Assembly (NCBI RefSeq): GCF_900176145.1 | Contig: NZ_FWWY01000001.1 | Coordinates: 3,329,011-3,393,010, forward strand | Source: Sulfobacillus thermosulfidooxidans DSM 9293 | GTDB taxonomy: Bacteria; Bacillota; Sulfobacillia; Sulfobacillales; Sulfobacillaceae | Reading direction: 5' to 3' | Length of the DNA: 64,000 bases | Shown: piece by piece, positions 17,795 through 46,003 of the stretch | Layout of the letters: each line of letters starts with the position of its first letter | How positions within the stretch are numbered: position 1 is the stretch's first letter | Notes under the pieces: generated by a model | What the model saw: only the letters and a program-made list of their open reading frames with translations | Told to the model about the DNA's origin: nothing | Databases searched by the model: none | Made by a program: the position numbers and the translations under genes

Positions 17795-19330
17795 TTATCC
17801 ATGATAAAAGGGATTAACGCGCGACACAGGAGTGGCAAGGACCCAGTCCCACGAATTCCCCAGATAAATCGTTCCCCCCACAATGACCGGGTTAACAATG
17901 CCGAAACGTCCGCCTAAGGTTTCATGGCCTAGCACCTGTCCCGTTCGGGGATTTAGCGCGTAAATAGTGGGACCTGTCGAAACATAGAGGGTCCCCTGAT
18001 AATACGTGGGAGCTCCCCGCCCAGCTCCAGCAGGTCCAGCATGGGGAACATGCCAGGTCCACAGTAGCCGCCCGTTCGTTAAATTGTACGCTTGATATAC
18101 ACTATTGACCGGGCTGCCCACATAAATGACATGATCATGAATCATGGGAACGCCCCCCTTAAACGCTGGGGGTAATGGGCCCCGTCCCATCTTTGCAGTC
18201 CACAAAACATGACCATTTTGGGCGTTAACAGCAAAAAGTACTGTATTTACGGTTTTTTGTCCCGCAATAACTTTGGGATCAGCGACGGCATCCATCACGA
18301 CTATATGATCGGCCACTGCCGGTGACACGTCACCCATACCGGTATTGACAACACCGGGCTGAGTCACTTTCCAGATCACTTGACCAGTTTTGGCATCAAG
18401 GCAATACAGCCATCCCGGCACCGAAAGTGATACATAAACCTTACCGTTCACCACACTTAAACTTGACATATTGTCGATACCACCAACAAAGGTATCCCAG
18501 ATGGATTGGCCCGTGGACGCATTAATGCAATGAATATGACCACTGCCCGTCGCAAAATAAATGTCGCCATCTTTGACAACAGGTGTGGCCATGGCTTCAC
18601 CGACCGTTCCATAACGCCACAACAACTTACCAGTTTGCGCATTGAGTGCATAAACGCCATTAAAACTAACATGTTCTCCCCGAACGGCTGGTTGATGAGC
18701 CGCATACTTTTGTACCGCGGAAAAATTGAAACCTACACTGCCAGCGGAAATATAAACGATATTGCCAGACACCACAGGATCGCCCATTAAATGATTTCCA
18801 ACAGGACTGCTACGCCATATGAGATGACCCGTCTTGGCATTGATGGCGTACGCAAAATCATCATCACTTTCCGCGTACACCACTCCTTTAACCACCGTCA
18901 CACCCGTAGCATTGCCATAAAATTGGGTAATGGTGGGTAAGGCACTTCGCGCCCCATACACACTGGTGTCATAAGCATTAGGGTTAGACAAGGGCCACGC
19001 TCTCGCTTCAGAAAAGGACCACGATACACCATGTTTCATCCATGCCGGGGCTGATGAAGACACCGCGAAGGCAGCATTGTGTTGCGCGTTAGCATAAGCA
19101 TGCGTCCAGGTGACCGGAAAGTACTTTGCTATCCGGGACGAAGGCATATTCTGGGGTAACACGACGCGAGCAAAAGGATTAGCTAATAGACGATTCAGAG
19201 TCGTGAAAAGTTGCTTGTCACAGGGTTTGGCTGAGTTTGCCGCACTAACACTTTGCTGTCCACATCCACTTGCCGTTATAAGCATAGTGCCTAATACAAA
19301 AGCTGTGAATGCTTGCCGTTTTGTTATCAT
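17795..19330 (-). CDS. PQQ-type beta-propeller lipoprotein
   Basis: A 511-residue exported protein with a lipoprotein signal (ITASGC, Cys at 23). From about residue 120 onward it carries repeated propeller blades of the PQQ-enzyme type: YAINAKTGHLIWRSSPVGNH, YALNAQTGKLLWRY, INASTGQSIWDTF, LDAKTGQVIWKV, VNAQNGHVLWTAKM and YNLTNGRLLWTW. The A-x-TG-x-x-LW signature repeats about seven times. It lacks the disulfide and metal residues of true quinoprotein dehydrogenases as far as I can see, so it may be a BamB-like scaffold or binding protein. It is paralogous to the C-terminal half of the glycosyltransferase fusion at 42573. Confidence 0.78.
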   Translation of the reverse strand: MITKRQAFTAFVLGTMLITASGCGQQSVSAANSAKPCDKQLFTTLNRLLANPFARVVLPQNMPSSRIAKYFPVTWTHAYANAQHNAAFAVSSSAPAWMKHGVSWSFSEARAWPLSNPNAYDTSVYGARSALPTITQFYGNATGVTVVKGVVYAESDDDFAYAINAKTGHLIWRSSPVGNHLMGDPVVSGNIVYISAGSVGFNFSAVQKYAAHQPAVRGEHVSFNGVYALNAQTGKLLWRYGTVGEAMATPVVKDGDIYFATGSGHIHCINASTGQSIWDTFVGGIDNMSSLSVVNGKVYVSLSVPGWLYCLDAKTGQVIWKVTQPGVVNTGMGDVSPAVADHIVVMDAVADPKVIAGQKTVNTVLFAVNAQNGHVLWTAKMGRGPLPPAFKGGVPMIHDHVIYVGSPVNSVYQAYNLTNGRLLWTWHVPHAGPAGAGRGAPTYYQGTLYVSTGPTIYALNPRTGQVLGHETLGGRFGIVNPVIVGGTIYLGNSWDWVLATPVSRVNPFYHG

Positions 19331-19615
19331 CCGATTATCATCCTTCCTTCACAAAACACGCCGAATAGCGAAATATCGCCAACACACTGAGGGATGCTCA
19401 TGACGTGAGTTGTCGAGTAGCCTAAGGCGCGTTCATTCTATGACGAAAGATTTCTGAAAAACTATCGGATCCGCTGCTGATTTAATTTCAACTTGTCTTA
19501 GGTTATCTAAGAAGGCTAATTCTGTATCTGCCATGTAAAAAAATATCTTCCTTGTGGCGCTGTTTTGTTTATACTAATAACTAGTACAATTTGCCTATCG
19601 CAAAGGAAGGGTCTA

Positions 19616-20590
19616 GTGGTGAAGATCCCTGCTCAGATTGCTCCTGTATTCTTTGTACGAGCCGTCATTCCAGTAATTTGTTTAACCAGTTTCTTATGTG
19701 TTCCCTCACACCCCCTGGTATTTAGCATCATTGCAGTCATTGCGCTTATCGATATCTTGATGCAATTTGTTTCTCATTCGCATCGTCAGGAAGTTAGGGA
19801 CTCTTATTCCCTAAATGCCTTAAAAGGATCGTGGATTCGGGATTTGACTTATACCTTAACCATATATGGCATCTATTTTCGCTATCCGCAGGTTCCCGCA
19901 TTGTCACTCAGTCCTGTTGCTGTGGCTGAAGGCATGATTTTTGCGGCCTCACCCCAACTCATCGCAATGTTGTCGCTATTCGGAGGACTCATTGTCATCC
20001 GCCGAATCATCTTTGCCTCGATAGGTTTGCCGATGATCCATATCAGCTGGCTCTTTTTCTTGATTACCACATTAATCATGGCGTCTGTCCTAGGATGGTT
20101 ATTGACCCAGCAACAAGAAACGCAACAACGCCTAGAATTCACTCACCAACAGAGTCGCAAGATTCTTGCCGCCATAATTGACAGAATATTGATAACTAAC
20201 AAAATCATTTTAGAGGAAACAGAACGTACGCGTTTAGATCACCTTATCAAAGCTGTATGTGATGGAGATGATAATGCCCAAGATTGTGACAGGCTGGGTC
20301 AAACGATTTCTCAAACATTACAGCAGCGTCAGCACGCACTAAACCTTTTGACGGAGCGTGAGCGAGAAATCTTGACCTTCATGGCACAAAAAAATCTTTC
20401 GTACCGGGCTATTGCCCAAAAACTGCACGTCAGCGAAGGCACTATTCGTGCCCATGCCAGCAATATTATGCAAAAAGCCCATGTACATAGCCGCCAAGAC
20501 GCGGTGATTTGGGCGCAATCATGGCATCTATTGCCAATTAATGGACCTCTTCGCGAGAAGATCTCTCAACATCATTACGAGACCGAGTAA
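19616..20590 (+). CDS. Membrane-anchored LuxR-type regulator
   Basis: About 325 residues. The N-terminal half has four or five hydrophobic segments (about 9-28, 33-50, 104-130, 139-165); a soluble helical linker follows; and the C-terminal third is a LuxR helix-turn-helix (LLTEREREILTFMAQ, then SYRAIAQKLHVSEGTIRAHASNIMQKAHVHSR). There is no receiver domain, so the signal probably comes through the membrane part. Two adjacent GTG codons (19616, 19619) follow AAGGAAGG and either could be the start. A TATACT box lies at 19570-19575. It is 63 nt upstream of the RCK channel-like gene on the same strand. Confidence 0.72.
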   Translation: MVKIPAQIAPVFFVRAVIPVICLTSFLCVPSHPLVFSIIAVIALIDILMQFVSHSHRQEVRDSYSLNALKGSWIRDLTYTLTIYGIYFRYPQVPALSLSPVAVAEGMIFAASPQLIAMLSLFGGLIVIRRIIFASIGLPMIHISWLFFLITTLIMASVLGWLLTQQQETQQRLEFTHQQSRKILAAIIDRILITNKIILEETERTRLDHLIKAVCDGDDNAQDCDRLGQTISQTLQQRQHALNLLTEREREILTFMAQKNLSYRAIAQKLHVSEGTIRAHASNIMQKAHVHSRQDAVIWAQSWHLLPINGPLREKISQHHYETE

Positions 20591-38019: not shown

Positions 38020-40542
38020 CTAACATTTGGAATAACCGCACGACTGGCAATGCTGACATCCTTCTTCGTAAACCAGGGTTGGTGCATCGCATTGAGGGCA
38101 CAGGTCCAAGTGAAGTGAGGTATGACGGTTATCACGTTCCTCGGTCTTTCTCGTGTTCGGGCTAGGAGAGGTAATTGCTGCGGCCTCTTCTCCCGGACGT
38201 TGGCGCAGGTGGGACTCTAGAAGTTGGCCAATGGCGTCAACAACGCTGAGCACGCGTCCTGGACCAAAGCCCATTTGGTTCGCACCACCGATACCTTTTA
38301 ATTGTTCCGCGACCAGTTCAAGTCGACGTCTTGGCGTGAGATTGCCGTTTGACCGGAGATAAAGACTGATAACGCGTCCTAAGGATTCCATAAAGGATTG
38401 AACCTCCGATCCCGCTCGTCCTAACAACATGAAGACTTCAAAAGGATTGCCATCTACTTCGTTAATCACAACCCGCGCGGTCCCCGCTGGCGTTTCCTTT
38501 CGGTAAGTCCGCCCATTAATCAATTGGGGAACCGGATAGACTTCAACATCATCAGCCATTGGCGGCATGTTTTCCGGAGTCGTAGCGTTAACAGCATCAT
38601 TTTTCGGCGAAGACTCTTCACTCAAATGAAGAACCTGCTCGGTACGACTCTGATCCCGGTAAATTGTCACGCCCTTACATCCCAGGTCATAGGCTAATTC
38701 ATATAACCTGGCTGTATCTTCAACCGTATACGTGCTCGGTGCGTTAGCCGTCTTGGAAATACTCGAATCCGTCCAACGTTGAATAGCCGCTTGCACATAG
38801 ACGTGTTCTTCAGGAGTGAGATCCATAGCGCCAACAAAATATGAAGGCAGTTCCATACCCGGATGGGCTTCTTTCCATTCAGCGGCCACCGGTACATATT
38901 GTTCGTCATAGCCTAGACGCGACTGGCGGAAATAGGTTAAAGCATAATACGGTTCAATTCCGGTGCTTGTTCCGACCATAGTCCCTACCGTTCCGGTTGG
39001 AGCTTGTGTCAAAATGGTGACATTGCGAACCCCATGTTCTCTGATGGCTTGCCTCACGGATTCCGGCAATCGTTTAATAAAGCCGCTTTGCAGATATAAT
39101 TCCGCGTTAAACGCAGGAAATGGGCCTTTTTCCTTCGCCAGTTCAACATCATATAAATAACTTTCTACCGCAATAAACTTATATAGCTTATCGATAAAAT
39201 CTAATGATTCGGGACTTCCATAACGCAATCCTAGCCGAATGAGTAACTCCCCAAGCCCCATAGTTCCTAGACCAATACGGCGTTCTTTCTGTTGGTTGTC
39301 ATAATTTTGTTGAAAGAAGTATGGGGTGGCGTCCACAATATCATCAAGAAATCGAACACCCATCCGGATCGTTGTCCGTAACCCATCCCAATTCACATCA
39401 TTGGTTTCTCGATCATAAAAGGCGGAGAGGTTTATATGACCTAAAGTACAAACTCCCCACGCGGGCAAAGGTTGTTCGGCACAAGGATTGGTACTGATTA
39501 AGGGATTAAAATACCAACTATTGGAATCCTTTTCGTGCCGTTCATCAAAGACGATACCAGGCTCCGCAGCCTGCCATGCTCCTTTAATGATTTCGTTCCA
39601 GATTTTTCTTGCCTTAACCGTTTCGTAAACAATAATGGGCTTGTCCGCTTTTTTCCAATTCTCGAGGTTTCCATCCCATAGCGTATCGTAATCGGGATCT
39701 GTCGTATCGGGAAAGACCAAATCCCAATCGTCATCATTTTTCACGGCTTGCATGAAACTATCAGAAATTCGAACACTAATATTAGCATTTTCAACCATTC
39801 CGGGCGTTTTCTTGACATCAATAAATCGCCAAATATCAGGGTGCCAATCTTCAATTTGTAACATTAATGCCCCCCGCCGTGAGCCGCCCTGCTCAACCAG
39901 TCCTGTAGCCCGGGAATACAAATCCATCCACGATACAGCCCCAGAGGATCGTCCATTTACTCCACGAACAGCCGCACGGGCTGGCCGTAGGGAGGAAATA
40001 TTGATTCCAACGCCACCTCCCCGGCTCATAATTTCGATCATCTGTCCAAGCGTTTCGACAATCCCCTCTCGACTATCCCGGGGACTGGGGATGACGTAGC
40101 AATTGAAATAGGTTAATTTTTGGTCGGTTCCGGCACCGGCCCAGATTCGGCCTCCCGGCACAAAATGCAGTGCCGCAATTTCCTTGGCAAAACTATCTTC
40201 CACGTCTTGCCGCACCTTAGGCTTTTCAACTTTAGCCACCCCGCGCGCAATCCGGCGGGCAACTTCGTCAATCGTCTTTTCGATGGGCCGATCACAATCC
40301 ACCACACGGCGCTCGATGAGATCCCCTTTTTGAGGGCCGGTTAGAAGCTCAATGGACAAATGTCCATCGGGAAGAATTTCCCGGACGATGCCCACATCTT
40401 TTTTAGGCCATTTGGGATGCGGCTCGACCAACGCGATGGCCAGATCCCCAACTTGAAAATTCCGATTGGGATCTTTCAATGTGTAGCGATCAAGAAATAT
40501 CTTCCAACTCAGTTCTGATGAAAATCCTGTAGATAATTCCAA
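38020..40542 (-). CDS. nrdJ: Class II (adenosylcobalamin-dependent) ribonucleotide reductase
   Basis: An 840-residue enzyme that makes deoxyribonucleotides using a B12 radical. The active site is NPCAEQPLP (about 351-359, radical Cys and Glu), with FVPGGRIWAGAG near 131, GGGVGINISSLRPA near 176, and TQAPTGTVG near 533. The C-terminus ends in a zinc ribbon, CPQC...CQHCQSCGYSKC, which shuttles reducing power. Residues about 28-80 (GDLAIALVEPHPKWPKKDVG...) are an extra beta-rich insert not usual in this class. TTG start with AGGAGGG 8 nt upstream, 3 nt after the nrdR stop, so the two are an operon. Confidence 0.92.
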   Translation of the reverse strand: MELSTGFSSELSWKIFLDRYTLKDPNRNFQVGDLAIALVEPHPKWPKKDVGIVREILPDGHLSIELLTGPQKGDLIERRVVDCDRPIEKTIDEVARRIARGVAKVEKPKVRQDVEDSFAKEIAALHFVPGGRIWAGAGTDQKLTYFNCYVIPSPRDSREGIVETLGQMIEIMSRGGGVGINISSLRPARAAVRGVNGRSSGAVSWMDLYSRATGLVEQGGSRRGALMLQIEDWHPDIWRFIDVKKTPGMVENANISVRISDSFMQAVKNDDDWDLVFPDTTDPDYDTLWDGNLENWKKADKPIIVYETVKARKIWNEIIKGAWQAAEPGIVFDERHEKDSNSWYFNPLISTNPCAEQPLPAWGVCTLGHINLSAFYDRETNDVNWDGLRTTIRMGVRFLDDIVDATPYFFQQNYDNQQKERRIGLGTMGLGELLIRLGLRYGSPESLDFIDKLYKFIAVESYLYDVELAKEKGPFPAFNAELYLQSGFIKRLPESVRQAIREHGVRNVTILTQAPTGTVGTMVGTSTGIEPYYALTYFRQSRLGYDEQYVPVAAEWKEAHPGMELPSYFVGAMDLTPEEHVYVQAAIQRWTDSSISKTANAPSTYTVEDTARLYELAYDLGCKGVTIYRDQSRTEQVLHLSEESSPKNDAVNATTPENMPPMADDVEVYPVPQLINGRTYRKETPAGTARVVINEVDGNPFEVFMLLGRAGSEVQSFMESLGRVISLYLRSNGNLTPRRRLELVAEQLKGIGGANQMGFGPGRVLSVVDAIGQLLESHLRQRPGEEAAAITSPSPNTRKTEERDNRHTSLHLDLCPQCDAPTLVYEEGCQHCQSCGYSKC

Positions 40543-40545
40543 TCC

Positions 40546-41019
40546 TTAGCCCTCCTGATGAACTTGCGGATGAAGTAATTTTTCTAGCTCTTGGCGAAAT
40601 CCTTCGATATCTGTAAATTGACGATACACGGATGCAAAGCGAACGTACGCCACTTGATCGACATCTTTAAGCTGATTCATAACCAGTTCGCCGATCCACC
40701 GCGAGGAGACTTCGCCAAAATGATGATCGCGAATCTCGCGCTCCACGGCATCAGCGATCATTTCGAGCTCGCTTAACCCAACAGGGCGCTTTTCGCAAGC
40801 AGTAAGAAGACCACGAAGAATCTTGGTCCGATCAAAGGATTCTCGCCGACCATCTTTTTTAATAACCCAGATGGGTATTTCTTCTACACGTTCATACGAT
40901 GTAAATCGTTGATGGCATTGTAAACATTCCCGGCGGCGCCGTATTTCACGACCCTCACGGGCCGGTCGGGAGTCCAAGACTTTGCTGTCATGGTAATTGC
41001 AAATCGGACACCGCATCAT
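40546..41019 (-). CDS. nrdR: NrdR transcriptional repressor
   Basis: A 157-residue repressor of ribonucleotide reductase genes that senses ATP/dATP. The zinc ribbon is CPIC (4-7) and CLQC (33-36), with the DNA-binding arginine run REIRRRRE, followed by an ATP-cone domain ([29 protein letters not shown]). It is the first gene of the nrdR-nrdJ operon and should repress its own promoter, which carries a NrdR-box-like dyad at 41059-41070. The first ATG (41019) is used; the second (41016) is equally possible. Confidence 0.95.
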
Positions 41020-42572: not shown

Positions 42573-45206
42573 TTAACGAACGGGAATCATGGCCACATTA
42601 CCCGTTTTGCTAGCTGCCAGCAATGCATGTGGAAAAAGAATTAACGCCGCAGGGCCAAATCCTCCTAGACCTTCTTGTGTTATCACACGAATATGTCCAT
42701 CACTCGCTTGGATTTGCACAATCATTCCATTATCAAGTCCAATCCACAACACGGAATTTTGTAAGATCGGATTGGCAACCGCTGATGCGGGTAATAATGT
42801 CCTCCATATCAGCCTACCACTTTTTGCATCAAATGCACTTAAGTTTCTATTAGCCGGATTTGCAATAAACACAATGTGATGAGCCACAAAGGGAATCCCT
42901 TCTTCTTCTTCATCGAGTGGAAGAAGACCTCCTCCCGTCTTGTGGTGCCATAATATATGACCATTTTGCGTAGAAATCGCAAACAGTTCATTATTTAACC
43001 AGGTTTGCCCCGTCTTTAAATTCACTATACGAGGCACCCCAGCAATATACAATATATTGTCCGCAATCGCAGGACTATTATCAGATAATCCACTAGCCAC
43101 TGGCAAGTTAATGTGCCACACAATTTGATGCGTAAGAAGATTAATATCCCAAACAGTTGATGATGAAGCGGGATAGGCTTTCATATAGACATTGGTGGCG
43201 ACAAATAGTTGGTTCCCATCAATAATAGGTGAAGACATGCTATCGAATCCTGCTAAAGGCAGTGACCATAATACATGGCCGTTGGTAGCCGCCACGGCCA
43301 AGAATTGTCCTGTGCCTGTTACCTCATAAATCACTCCATGCTGGAGTGCTGGCGTCGGCATGTCTTCGCCTATTGTGGGAGTAAACCATAATTCTTTTCC
43401 CGTTATGCGATTAAAGGCCATAAGACCATTCGTCCCCGTGCCTCTAAGCCACCCTTGTGTCTGCGAATAGCTTCGAAATGCCTTATTCCCTAAGCCGACA
43501 ATTACCTCATTCTTCCACACTAGAGGTGTCGTCATAACCATATTCGGCAATGTGTCCGTCCAAAGGCGTCGTCCTGATAATAAGTTCCATGCTATCAATT
43601 GATTATTATTGCTCCCAACAAAGCCATCATGACCGACCACAGCTGGTTGATCGGCCACCGGACCGGTGTGCAGAATATAACCTGTCTGAAGGGGTATTGG
43701 GTTATCCCAATTAAATACCGTATTATGCTGAAGGCCCGTTTCAAATCCGCTCCATTCTTGGGGAACGGATGCACCGGCATCAAAAGAAGCTGCTGCTTTG
43801 GTGGTAATAGGCATCACGTGTGCACTCACGGACTGTGTACTTGGTGGTGTCGTTTTAGGTTTCGCATTCCACGTCGGGGACCAAAAAACGCTATGATAGA
43901 AACCATTTGGCATAGGCAATCCAACCCAGAGAGGAAAAAGATAGAGTGTCGTAATGCCGACGCCCAATCCTTCCGTCAACCCTAGCCACCGCCACCGACC
44001 CTGCGCGATATGAAACAGTTGAACCATGCCATAAGCCGTACTCATAATTAACATTGGCATCATGGACAAAAAATAATAATTAAATTTCGATCGTGGGGTT
44101 AACAGCCATGTGCCGTAAAATACTAAAAACCACACCACAAAAAATAGTGTCGGAGGGCGTAATCTATGCGCTGTCTTGATATCTCTCCCCACCATGATTA
44201 ATAAACTGAATAGGCCCAACCAAATCACAAGAGGGTTAGAAAAAGCTAATAAACGAATCGTGTCATGCGCCCCAGTAATCCATAAATACGCTGTTGGTCG
44301 CGGTAATCCTAACCAGGTCCAGGCGTTGGCCGTCCAGGGATGATAAAATTGCAGCGTCCACATATTTTTCAAGATCAGCCATTGCAGTTTAGCCCATGCC
44401 AAAAACACATTCTGAGGAAGCCATGACTGATGAAAACCTCCGGGAAATGCATAGGCATAGGTCAAAAAATAAACGACAAGTGGAATCACAGTCACGGATG
44501 CAATATACATTACGCGGCGTGGCGATTGCCAAATTCGACGCCATGACAGCGCAAAAATAATCCATGCCATGAGGATACTTTGAGCACCAATCCATTTAGC
44601 CGAAAATCCTAATCCTAACGTGATACCAAACATCCATAACGTCTTGCGTGTGATCCACCGATCATTGTGGAGATCGTCATACAAACGCCATAGGATGAAA
44701 AGATTCCAAATAACAAAGGGAAATGCAATAGAATCCAGTAAAGCTAATCGACTAGTACTCACCATTAATCCGTCGACCGCTGATAAGCCAGCGGCGATAC
44801 CCGCCACTTGCCGATTATGAAATATTGATTGGGCTAAAGCGTATACGACAATGGGCACGAATGCCCCTAATAATGCACCTGGTAAGCGCCATGCCCATGG
44901 ATGATTGCCGAAGGTCATAATAGCAGCGGCAATGACCTCTTTGGCAAATGGGGGTGCGGACAACAGATTCGGATCAATGCCGTAAACTAAATGCTTAACC
45001 AGAACAGGCGGTTTATGATGAATGAGCACATCAGCAGCTGTAACATAGTAATATTCATCATAAATCAGGCCATGGTAACGCCCCAAACCAATAAAACGCA
45101 CCAAAAATGCCACCATTTCAATGGGAATCAAAACCCACCATTGGGGTAGTAAACGAGGATAAAGACGAAGATGACGGTGAGTTTGTTCTTTAGATAATGA
45201 AATCAT
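42573..45206 (-). CDS. PMT-type glycosyltransferase fused to a PQQ-type beta-propeller
   Basis: An 877-residue, two-part protein. Residues to about 430 form a multi-spanning GT-C glycosyltransferase like dolichyl-phosphate-mannose-protein mannosyltransferase (FIGLGRYHGLIYDEYYYVTAADVL with the Asp-Glu pair, then FAKEVIAAAIMTFGNHPWAWRLPG, and PFVIWNLFILW). Residues about 490-877 form a propeller with repeats LIAWNLLSGRRLWTDT, MAFNRITGKELWFTP, AVAATNGHVLWSLP, FAISTQNGHILWHHK and FDAKSGRLIWRT. The propeller would lie outside the membrane. It is clearly similar to the lipoprotein at 17795. The start at 45206 has GGGGGAG 6 nt upstream. It may glycosylate exported proteins, the propeller binding the acceptor. 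Confidence 0.8.
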   Translation of the reverse strand: MISLSKEQTHRHLRLYPRLLPQWWVLIPIEMVAFLVRFIGLGRYHGLIYDEYYYVTAADVLIHHKPPVLVKHLVYGIDPNLLSAPPFAKEVIAAAIMTFGNHPWAWRLPGALLGAFVPIVVYALAQSIFHNRQVAGIAAGLSAVDGLMVSTSRLALLDSIAFPFVIWNLFILWRLYDDLHNDRWITRKTLWMFGITLGLGFSAKWIGAQSILMAWIIFALSWRRIWQSPRRVMYIASVTVIPLVVYFLTYAYAFPGGFHQSWLPQNVFLAWAKLQWLILKNMWTLQFYHPWTANAWTWLGLPRPTAYLWITGAHDTIRLLAFSNPLVIWLGLFSLLIMVGRDIKTAHRLRPPTLFFVVWFLVFYGTWLLTPRSKFNYYFLSMMPMLIMSTAYGMVQLFHIAQGRWRWLGLTEGLGVGITTLYLFPLWVGLPMPNGFYHSVFWSPTWNAKPKTTPPSTQSVSAHVMPITTKAAASFDAGASVPQEWSGFETGLQHNTVFNWDNPIPLQTGYILHTGPVADQPAVVGHDGFVGSNNNQLIAWNLLSGRRLWTDTLPNMVMTTPLVWKNEVIVGLGNKAFRSYSQTQGWLRGTGTNGLMAFNRITGKELWFTPTIGEDMPTPALQHGVIYEVTGTGQFLAVAATNGHVLWSLPLAGFDSMSSPIIDGNQLFVATNVYMKAYPASSSTVWDINLLTHQIVWHINLPVASGLSDNSPAIADNILYIAGVPRIVNLKTGQTWLNNELFAISTQNGHILWHHKTGGGLLPLDEEEEGIPFVAHHIVFIANPANRNLSAFDAKSGRLIWRTLLPASAVANPILQNSVLWIGLDNGMIVQIQASDGHIRVITQEGLGGFGPAALILFPHALLAASKTGNVAMIPVR

Positions 45207-45343
45207 CGGCATCTCCCCCTTAATCCACAATTCAACCCGACAATGTTAGACATATTATAACGTGGAATCACACTCAACCTGCTGGTGAAAATTTCCTGAG
45301 GAGTATTCGGCCGAGGTCTTCAGGGCCTTTTGAGTCTATAACC

Positions 45344-46003
45344 TTATTGCCATAAATCCATAACGGGTTCCAAGAGAGCGAAAACATTAGATTCCGTAAT
45401 GTTGTCCTGGACAATTCCCCAGGATAATGAAACCCAGTACCATGGCCATTCTCGCAGGGATTGCAACCGTGTCACGAGATCATCAATAAGGGTGACTTGC
45501 TTAAGCTCTCCCACTTCACTCACATCAAACACCGGATCTGCTAGCGTCAATTGGCCTTGTTCGTTGAGAATCCAGTGAAACTGGTGGTGAAAAGGACTAC
45601 TTAAAGGATTAAAGCCGGGCACAACGCCATTGGTTACTTGTAACCATAAATGAAGAGGGACCTTTTGTGCGGCATGGGTAATATCCTTAAGACGGGCTGA
45701 ATCACCCGTTACCCGCATATAAGGCCATACATCATACATAATGAACGAATGCGGAACATTGTAGGATCGTGCTTGGCGACCCAATCCTTTATCCAGACGA
45801 ATCCGTACAGAACGGGTGTCGGCTTGTTCCAGAATATCCACTTTTATACAACGCCAACACTTTTTTACGGGTTGGGGTGCGAACATCCATTGCATCGAAT
45901 GAGCATCCGACAAGGATTCAATAAAAACCGGAGATACTTGATTTCGTTCGAGCAAATTATTGACCAGTAATACCGTGGGATGCGCTTCAACTAATGCCAT
46001 CAT
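45344..46003 (-). CDS. Hypothetical protein
   Basis: A 219-residue soluble protein I do not recognise. It has a Cys pair, KKCWRCIKVDI near residue 50, many aromatic residues and a mixed alpha/beta feel, with no signal peptide or membrane segment. The ATG lacks a good ribosome binding site, and a hairpin stands just before it. A perfect AAGGAGGT near 46097-46104 on the minus strand is followed by an open frame in phase with this gene but with no ATG, GTG or TTG, so a non-standard start or a small deletion is possible. It lies between the fusion gene and a CoA-binding protein gene. Confidence 0.5.
   Translation of the reverse strand: MMALVEAHPTVLLVNNLLERNQVSPVFIESLSDAHSMQWMFAPQPVKKCWRCIKVDILEQADTRSVRIRLDKGLGRQARSYNVPHSFIMYDVWPYMRVTGDSARLKDITHAAQKVPLHLWLQVTNGVVPGFNPLSSPFHHQFHWILNEQGQLTLADPVFDVSEVGELKQVTLIDDLVTRLQSLREWPWYWVSLSWGIVQDNITESNVFALLEPVMDLWQ

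Follow-up and report, generated by a model that had tools for sequence, protein, structure and literature searches.

A 64,000-nucleotide stretch of the Sulfobacillus thermosulfidooxidans DSM 9293 genome (the window; contig NZ_FWWY01000001.1, positions 3,329,011–3,393,010) raises the question of whether one gene really joins a PMT-type glycosyltransferase to a beta-propeller, and what such a protein would do. The features discussed are listed in Table 1.

An open frame without interruption (42573–45230, minus strand) spans both halves, and a purine-rich ribosome-binding site lies at 45215–45220, ahead of the start codon. Pfam searches place PMT (PF02366) at aa 49–254 (E 2.1e-18) with 67.2 bits, above the family gathering score of 22.7. 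PQQ_2 (PF13360) matches the C-terminal third, with its best stretch at aa 596–840 (E 1.4e-25). The single ORF, the two Pfam matches and the recovery of the peptides it quoted bear out the original prediction of a PMT-type glycosyltransferase fused to a propeller, which it had placed outside the membrane.

Table 1. Coordinates of the fusion gene, its domains and motifs, and other genes discussed, in window numbering.
Feature	Position	Strand	Basis or remark
PMT-propeller fusion gene	42573..45206	-	encodes 877 aa from the ATG at 45206
GT-C (PMT-type) membrane domain, aa 20-446	43869..45149	-	Pfam PF02366/PF13231 and model matching Pmt4, Pmt1-Pmt2
S/T/P-rich linker, fast-evolving, aa 447-492	43731..43868	-	composition, dN/dS
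Eight-bladed TetH-like beta-propeller, aa 500-877	42576..43709	-	Pfam PQQ_2 and model matching TetH 6L8A/7CQY
D50-E51, DE motif, first external loop	45054..45059	-	aligns with DE of yeast Pmt1, Pmt4
R153-x4-D158, second catalytic Asp motif	44733..44750	-	Rx4-6D motif
R372-x2-F375, donor-phosphate-binding Rx2F/Y motif	44082..44093	-	aligns with Rx2F of yeast PMTs
Beta hairpin, aa 305-321, external loop before C-terminal TM helices	44244..44294	-	both models, low confidence there
Insertion, aa 672-682, invariant N672, Y674, P679	43161..43193	-	only in fused-type propellers
D709, equivalent of essential Asp325 of A. ferrooxidans TetH	43080..43082	-	alignment
E768, position of TetH Lys381	42903..42905	-	alignment
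Upstream 219-aa protein, no Pfam family	45344..46003	-	neighbour conserved in same genus and several other genera
NrdR-like gene, conserved downstream neighbour	40546..41019	-	synteny
Tetrathionate hydrolase, predicted lipoprotein, outside the fusion system	17795..19330	-	phmmer to PDB 6L8A

The fusion was sought in 61 genomes (the window's own and 60 relatives) and found in 27, of which 25 belong to the window's family f1 (seven genera) and two to a second family of the order, f2. These 27 include a copy that ends at a contig end (G007) and a copy in a MAG (G020) whose reading frame is broken by one in-frame stop close to where the domains meet. Outside the order, 154 genomes of the class and a sample of 398 from the phylum yielded no fusion, and plasmid records contain PMT and propeller halves only as separate proteins. 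The original prediction had allowed for an assembly error that a check in relatives would expose. An assembly or gene-calling artefact might be argued from the stop in G020 and from two genomes in which the PMT stands without a propeller, but G000, G003, G004 and G011, which are complete or nearly so, and the complete chromosome of S. thermotolerans (CP019454.1) all carry the fusion intact. The chance of an artefact is negligible, and assembly error was ruled out since relatives carry the same fused architecture. The two halves are truly joined, in a fusion that is both old and conserved. The stop in G020 (L034), near the PMT/propeller boundary, may reflect an error in sequencing, a decaying gene or halves that are naturally split.

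Both halves are maintained. Nei–Gojobori dN/dS over five pairs is 0.05–0.09 for the PMT half and 0.07–0.10 for the propeller, compared with 0.27–0.39 for the linker, and by these estimates both halves, though not the linker, are under purifying selection. The linker is also distinct in composition, with 25–46% Ser, Thr and Pro across 25 orthologues versus 15–23% in both domains.

The membrane half was modelled with AlphaFold2 (pLDDT 75, pTM 0.82). The best matches of the model are Pmt4 (Z 31.8 over 410 residues) and then the Pmt1-Pmt2 complex (Z 30.4); PMT matches as a group have Z 29–32 over 410–417 residues, and the non-PMT matches are oligosaccharyltransferases (Z 25.9), ArnT (23.1) and AftD (18). 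Nearest-fold comparison thus assigns the predicted model to the GT-C fold of PMT type, and the domain profile matches the Pmt1 and Pmt4 chains. Alignment of 25 orthologues to yeast PMTs recovers all three motifs (DE, Rx4-6D, Rx2F/Y). D50-E51 is invariant in the 25 fused proteins and in two PMT-only proteins. D158 is invariant in all of them, and R153 is invariant in fused proteins and replaced by His in both PMT-only proteins. R372 and F375 are invariant in fused and PMT-only proteins, and the Phe is also found in yeast Pmt1. The residues essential in MtPMT are D74 (DE), D176 (Rx4-6D), R441 and Y444 (PMC12331936); their counterparts here are D50, D158, R372 and F375. The predicted hairpin at aa 305–321 would correspond to the acceptor-binding EL4 hairpin of MtPMT (PMC12331936).

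The match to known PMTs is incomplete. PF16192, the C-terminal PMT_4TMC module, has no match in the fusion up to E 1; the region where it is expected aligns with the C-terminal helices of yeast PMTs in fold and weakly in sequence. The NCBIfam PMT equivalog NF058602 scores 53.5 bits against a cut-off of 800. Because PF16192 is unmatched and the NF058602 score falls so far below the cut-off, the sugar and acceptor may differ from those of a true PMT. The N-terminal half is a PMT-type glycosyltransferase and not the curated equivalog. Synthase-like GT2 proteins for polyprenyl-phosphate sugars occur throughout the order, and they are not diagnostic because they are also present in genomes without the fusion.

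The full-length model (pLDDT 82.7, pTM 0.59, with relative domain orientation uncertain) gives the C-terminal domain eight blades. The closest structure to the modelled propeller is tetrathionate hydrolase (TetH), with Z 49.2 and rmsd 2.1 over 373 residues; YxaL follows about 12 Z units lower (36.8). Foldseek also returned TetH as best match, and the domain is predicted to be a TetH-type eight-bladed propeller. TetH (6L8A) is likewise its best PDB sequence match. An alignment of 48 propellers identified N555, R588, E614, D655 and D709 as invariant in fused proteins and common to TetH. Asp occupies the D709 position in all 25 fused proteins, 3/3 TetHs and 18 of 20 other paralogs, so this residue is no proof of TetH chemistry. 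At the E768 position, Glu is found in 25/25 fused proteins and 13/20 other paralogs, and Lys in all of the only three TetHs compared. In trees, the fused propellers and one stand-alone propeller form their own group and the TetHs another; these trees are unrooted and give no order of branching among TetH-type, fused-type and other propellers. Identification of the fused propeller as a TetH was rejected on its separate tree group and the change from Lys381 to Glu768; it also differs from TetH in the attached GT-C domain and its own insertion. The fused propeller falls below the cut-offs for PQQ-dependent dehydrogenases (TIGR03075, 29.2 against 480 bits; TIGR03074, 26.9 against 833). BamB and YxaL, also PQQ-like, share the eight-bladed W-motif plan, but their structural similarity is lower (Z 32–37 versus 49).

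The window holds a second propeller gene, for a lipoprotein that was originally taken as a stand-alone paralog of the fused domain and, tentatively, as its free version or target. Its similarity to the fused propeller is far beyond chance (BLASTP, 32% identity over 285 aa, E 5e-40), but it is not the closest relative, as three other propellers of the genome score higher (32–33% over aa 482–876). The lipoprotein matches PDB 6L8A, TetH of Acidithiobacillus ferrooxidans, with E 2.5e-166 over aa 51–505 (phmmer), and a plausible lipobox, TASGC, can be read in its sequence. Published 6L8A numbering equals chain index plus 29 (the sole Cys, index 272, is Cys301), and Asp325 is therefore index 296. 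D334 of the lipoprotein aligns with Asp325, which is essential in TetH (D325N is inactive; PMC10859504). Going by this homology the lipoprotein is a tetrathionate hydrolase, and its annotation is corrected accordingly.

A role for this lipoprotein as free form or glycosylation target of the fused propeller is hardly credible. Its similarity to the fused propeller is detectable and both proteins are predicted to lie outside the membrane, but it is a TetH, groups apart from the fused propellers and contains no long S/T/P-rich segment that could serve as acceptor. The two genes also differ in distribution: TetH-like matches (E<=1e-60) occur in 13/61 genomes against 27/61 for the fusion, most fusion genomes are without TetH, and G035 has TetH and no PMT match. 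On co-distribution and tree, a free propeller as partner was rejected, and that part of the original prediction is not supported. Apart from the fusion, the window's genome has at least ten propeller loci. Fusion genomes G036 and G037 have no further propeller match at E 0.001, which together with the TetH distribution argues for a TetH-independent role of the fusion.

We lean towards a PMT-type transferase that moves sugar to an acceptor outside the membrane, with the propeller as accessory domain. The glycosyltransferase half would take the sugar from a polyprenyl-phosphate carrier and transfer it on the outer face of the membrane, most likely to Ser/Thr of exported proteins; the GT2 proteins found throughout the order fit such a donor. 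The S/T/P-rich tether after the last transmembrane helix would hold the propeller in the compartment of the active site, where it would bind or position the acceptor, or an envelope ligand. The propeller would have its origin among the TetH-like propellers of these acidophiles. By analogy with MtPMT, whose C-terminus was tested and lies outside and which tolerates C-terminal fusions (PMC12331936), the propeller at the C-terminus is expected outside. An acceptor-holding role is plausible since a PMT-type glycosyltransferase with a propeller in this predicted position is conserved and its catalytic residues are kept; it also fits the persistence of the PMT alone in two g9 genomes. MtPMT prefers Pro-rich acceptors (PMC12331936), and since Ser, Thr and Pro abound in the linker, glycosylation of the tether by the fusion itself is conceivable.

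MtPMT (GT39) shares with the fusion the GT-C fold, the DE, R-x4-D and Rx2F/Y motifs, the EL4 beta hairpin and a C-terminus expected outside; it lacks a large soluble domain, whereas the fusion has an additional eight-bladed propeller, about 380 aa long, and leaves PF16192 unmatched. Bacterial PMTs are described as being without MIR, the bulky soluble domain that helps eukaryotic PMTs to handle acceptors (PMC12331936). Eukaryotic PMTs (Pmt1/2, Pmt4, POMT) resemble the fusion in having a PMT core and, facing the acceptor, a large soluble domain, but theirs is a MIR beta-trefoil inserted in loop EL4, and that of the fusion is a beta-propeller at the C-terminus. No MIR domain was matched by Pfam in the fusion, and its loop at aa 285–324 is short. 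The propeller is best read as an acquired accessory domain with a role comparable, by analogy, to that of MIR. A bacterial lineage appears to have added a different soluble domain, a propeller of a sulfur-enzyme family, to a PMT and to have kept it under strong selection. No description of a glycosyltransferase- or PMT-propeller fusion was found in the open-access papers searched, in agreement with the original statement that no described system of this kind was known.

The acceptor could instead be an envelope lipid or glycan, in ArnT-like or cell-wall work, with the propeller docking the enzyme to envelope material. We regard this as possible and clearly the lesser option. GT-C folds are common to lipid- and glycan-modifying enzymes, as the ArnT and AftD matches illustrate, and only the general PMT/PMT_2 models match the fusion, PF16192 being absent; PMTs are, however, nearest in fold by a clear margin, and the Rx2F and R-x4-D motifs agree with them.

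That residues in the propeller pocket are invariant could point to catalysis rather than binding. The protein would then be two enzymes in one, with TetH-like acid catalysis through D709 in the propeller and the glycosyltransferase half as second enzyme or anchor. The closeness of the TetH fold and the invariance of D709, N555, R588, E614 and D655, all common to TetH, favor such an arrangement, which we nonetheless consider unlikely: the Asp is a family trait, shared by most other paralogs, the TetH Lys is replaced by an invariant Glu, and the glycosyltransferase half is not degenerate. A version with two coupled active sites, in which the propeller center formed by these five residues acts on or senses surface sulfur compounds and couples them to PMT glycosylation, seems decidedly improbable. 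An accessory propeller that binds acceptor or envelope ligand remains our preferred reading.

The locus itself is syntenic in f1: a CoA-binding protein, the 219-aa protein and/or a YajQ-like protein, the fusion, an NrdR-like gene and ribonucleotide reductase, the last at 38020–40542 in the window. Names of locus genes other than those with Pfam matches (e.g. NrdR-like, ribonucleotide reductase) are presumed from sequence recognition. None of the conserved neighbours points to glycosylation. Two genera checked that are without PMT (L086, L087) still keep several of them, and the neighbours therefore look like stable synteny and not operon partners. As several persist where the PMT is absent, the 219-aa, CoA-binding, YajQ-like, NrdR and EamA proteins were rejected as functional partners.

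In the two g9 genomes, the same locus encodes a PMT of about 460–520 aa and the propeller is absent. Ten of 68 otherwise invariant PMT positions are changed in these proteins, and the changed positions may include a propeller contact. The g9 PMT-only proteins may branch in more than one place (p-AU 0.39), and loss of the propeller would be the simplest reading because the outgroup family f2 is fused. G008 has, beside its full fusion, a stand-alone fused-type propeller (L076, 4363–5793) that has an N-terminal hydrophobic segment of its own. This propeller carries the fused-type insertion, and it may have arisen either within the fused group or next to it (p-AU 0.44). The PMT-only relatives and the G008 propeller are natural comparisons for the role of such domains.

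Propellers also occur in other settings. A membrane protein ending in a LuxR-type HTH (window 19565–20590, plus strand) is divergent from the adjoining tetH lipoprotein gene, and a 29%-identical homologue (L102, 9991–10857, plus strand) is divergent from a second TetH-like gene (L102, 7888–9795). These LuxR-type membrane proteins are likely a dedicated regulator pair for tetH-type genes. At about 2.09 Mb of the window's genome (L098, 8697–13653), a propeller protein ends in a SoxA/TsdA-like cytochrome c domain. Its gene is followed by those for a small cytochrome c, for a membrane protein of putative glycopolymer type and for a GT2 resembling polyprenyl-phosphate-sugar synthases; gene order is similar in S. 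thermotolerans (L089) and G023 (L078). In region L103 (6881–9905 and 1944–4379), a two-propeller gene is split into two overlapping ORFs; G003 and G035 have it as a single ORF of about 1044 aa. Near it in L103 are a weak PMT_2 GT-C match (27.7 bits) and a GtrA-like protein. In G057, a propeller lipoprotein (L040, 86–2610) is encoded immediately downstream of a membrane protein with DUF2079, a further case within the class of a propeller adjoining a polytopic membrane protein.
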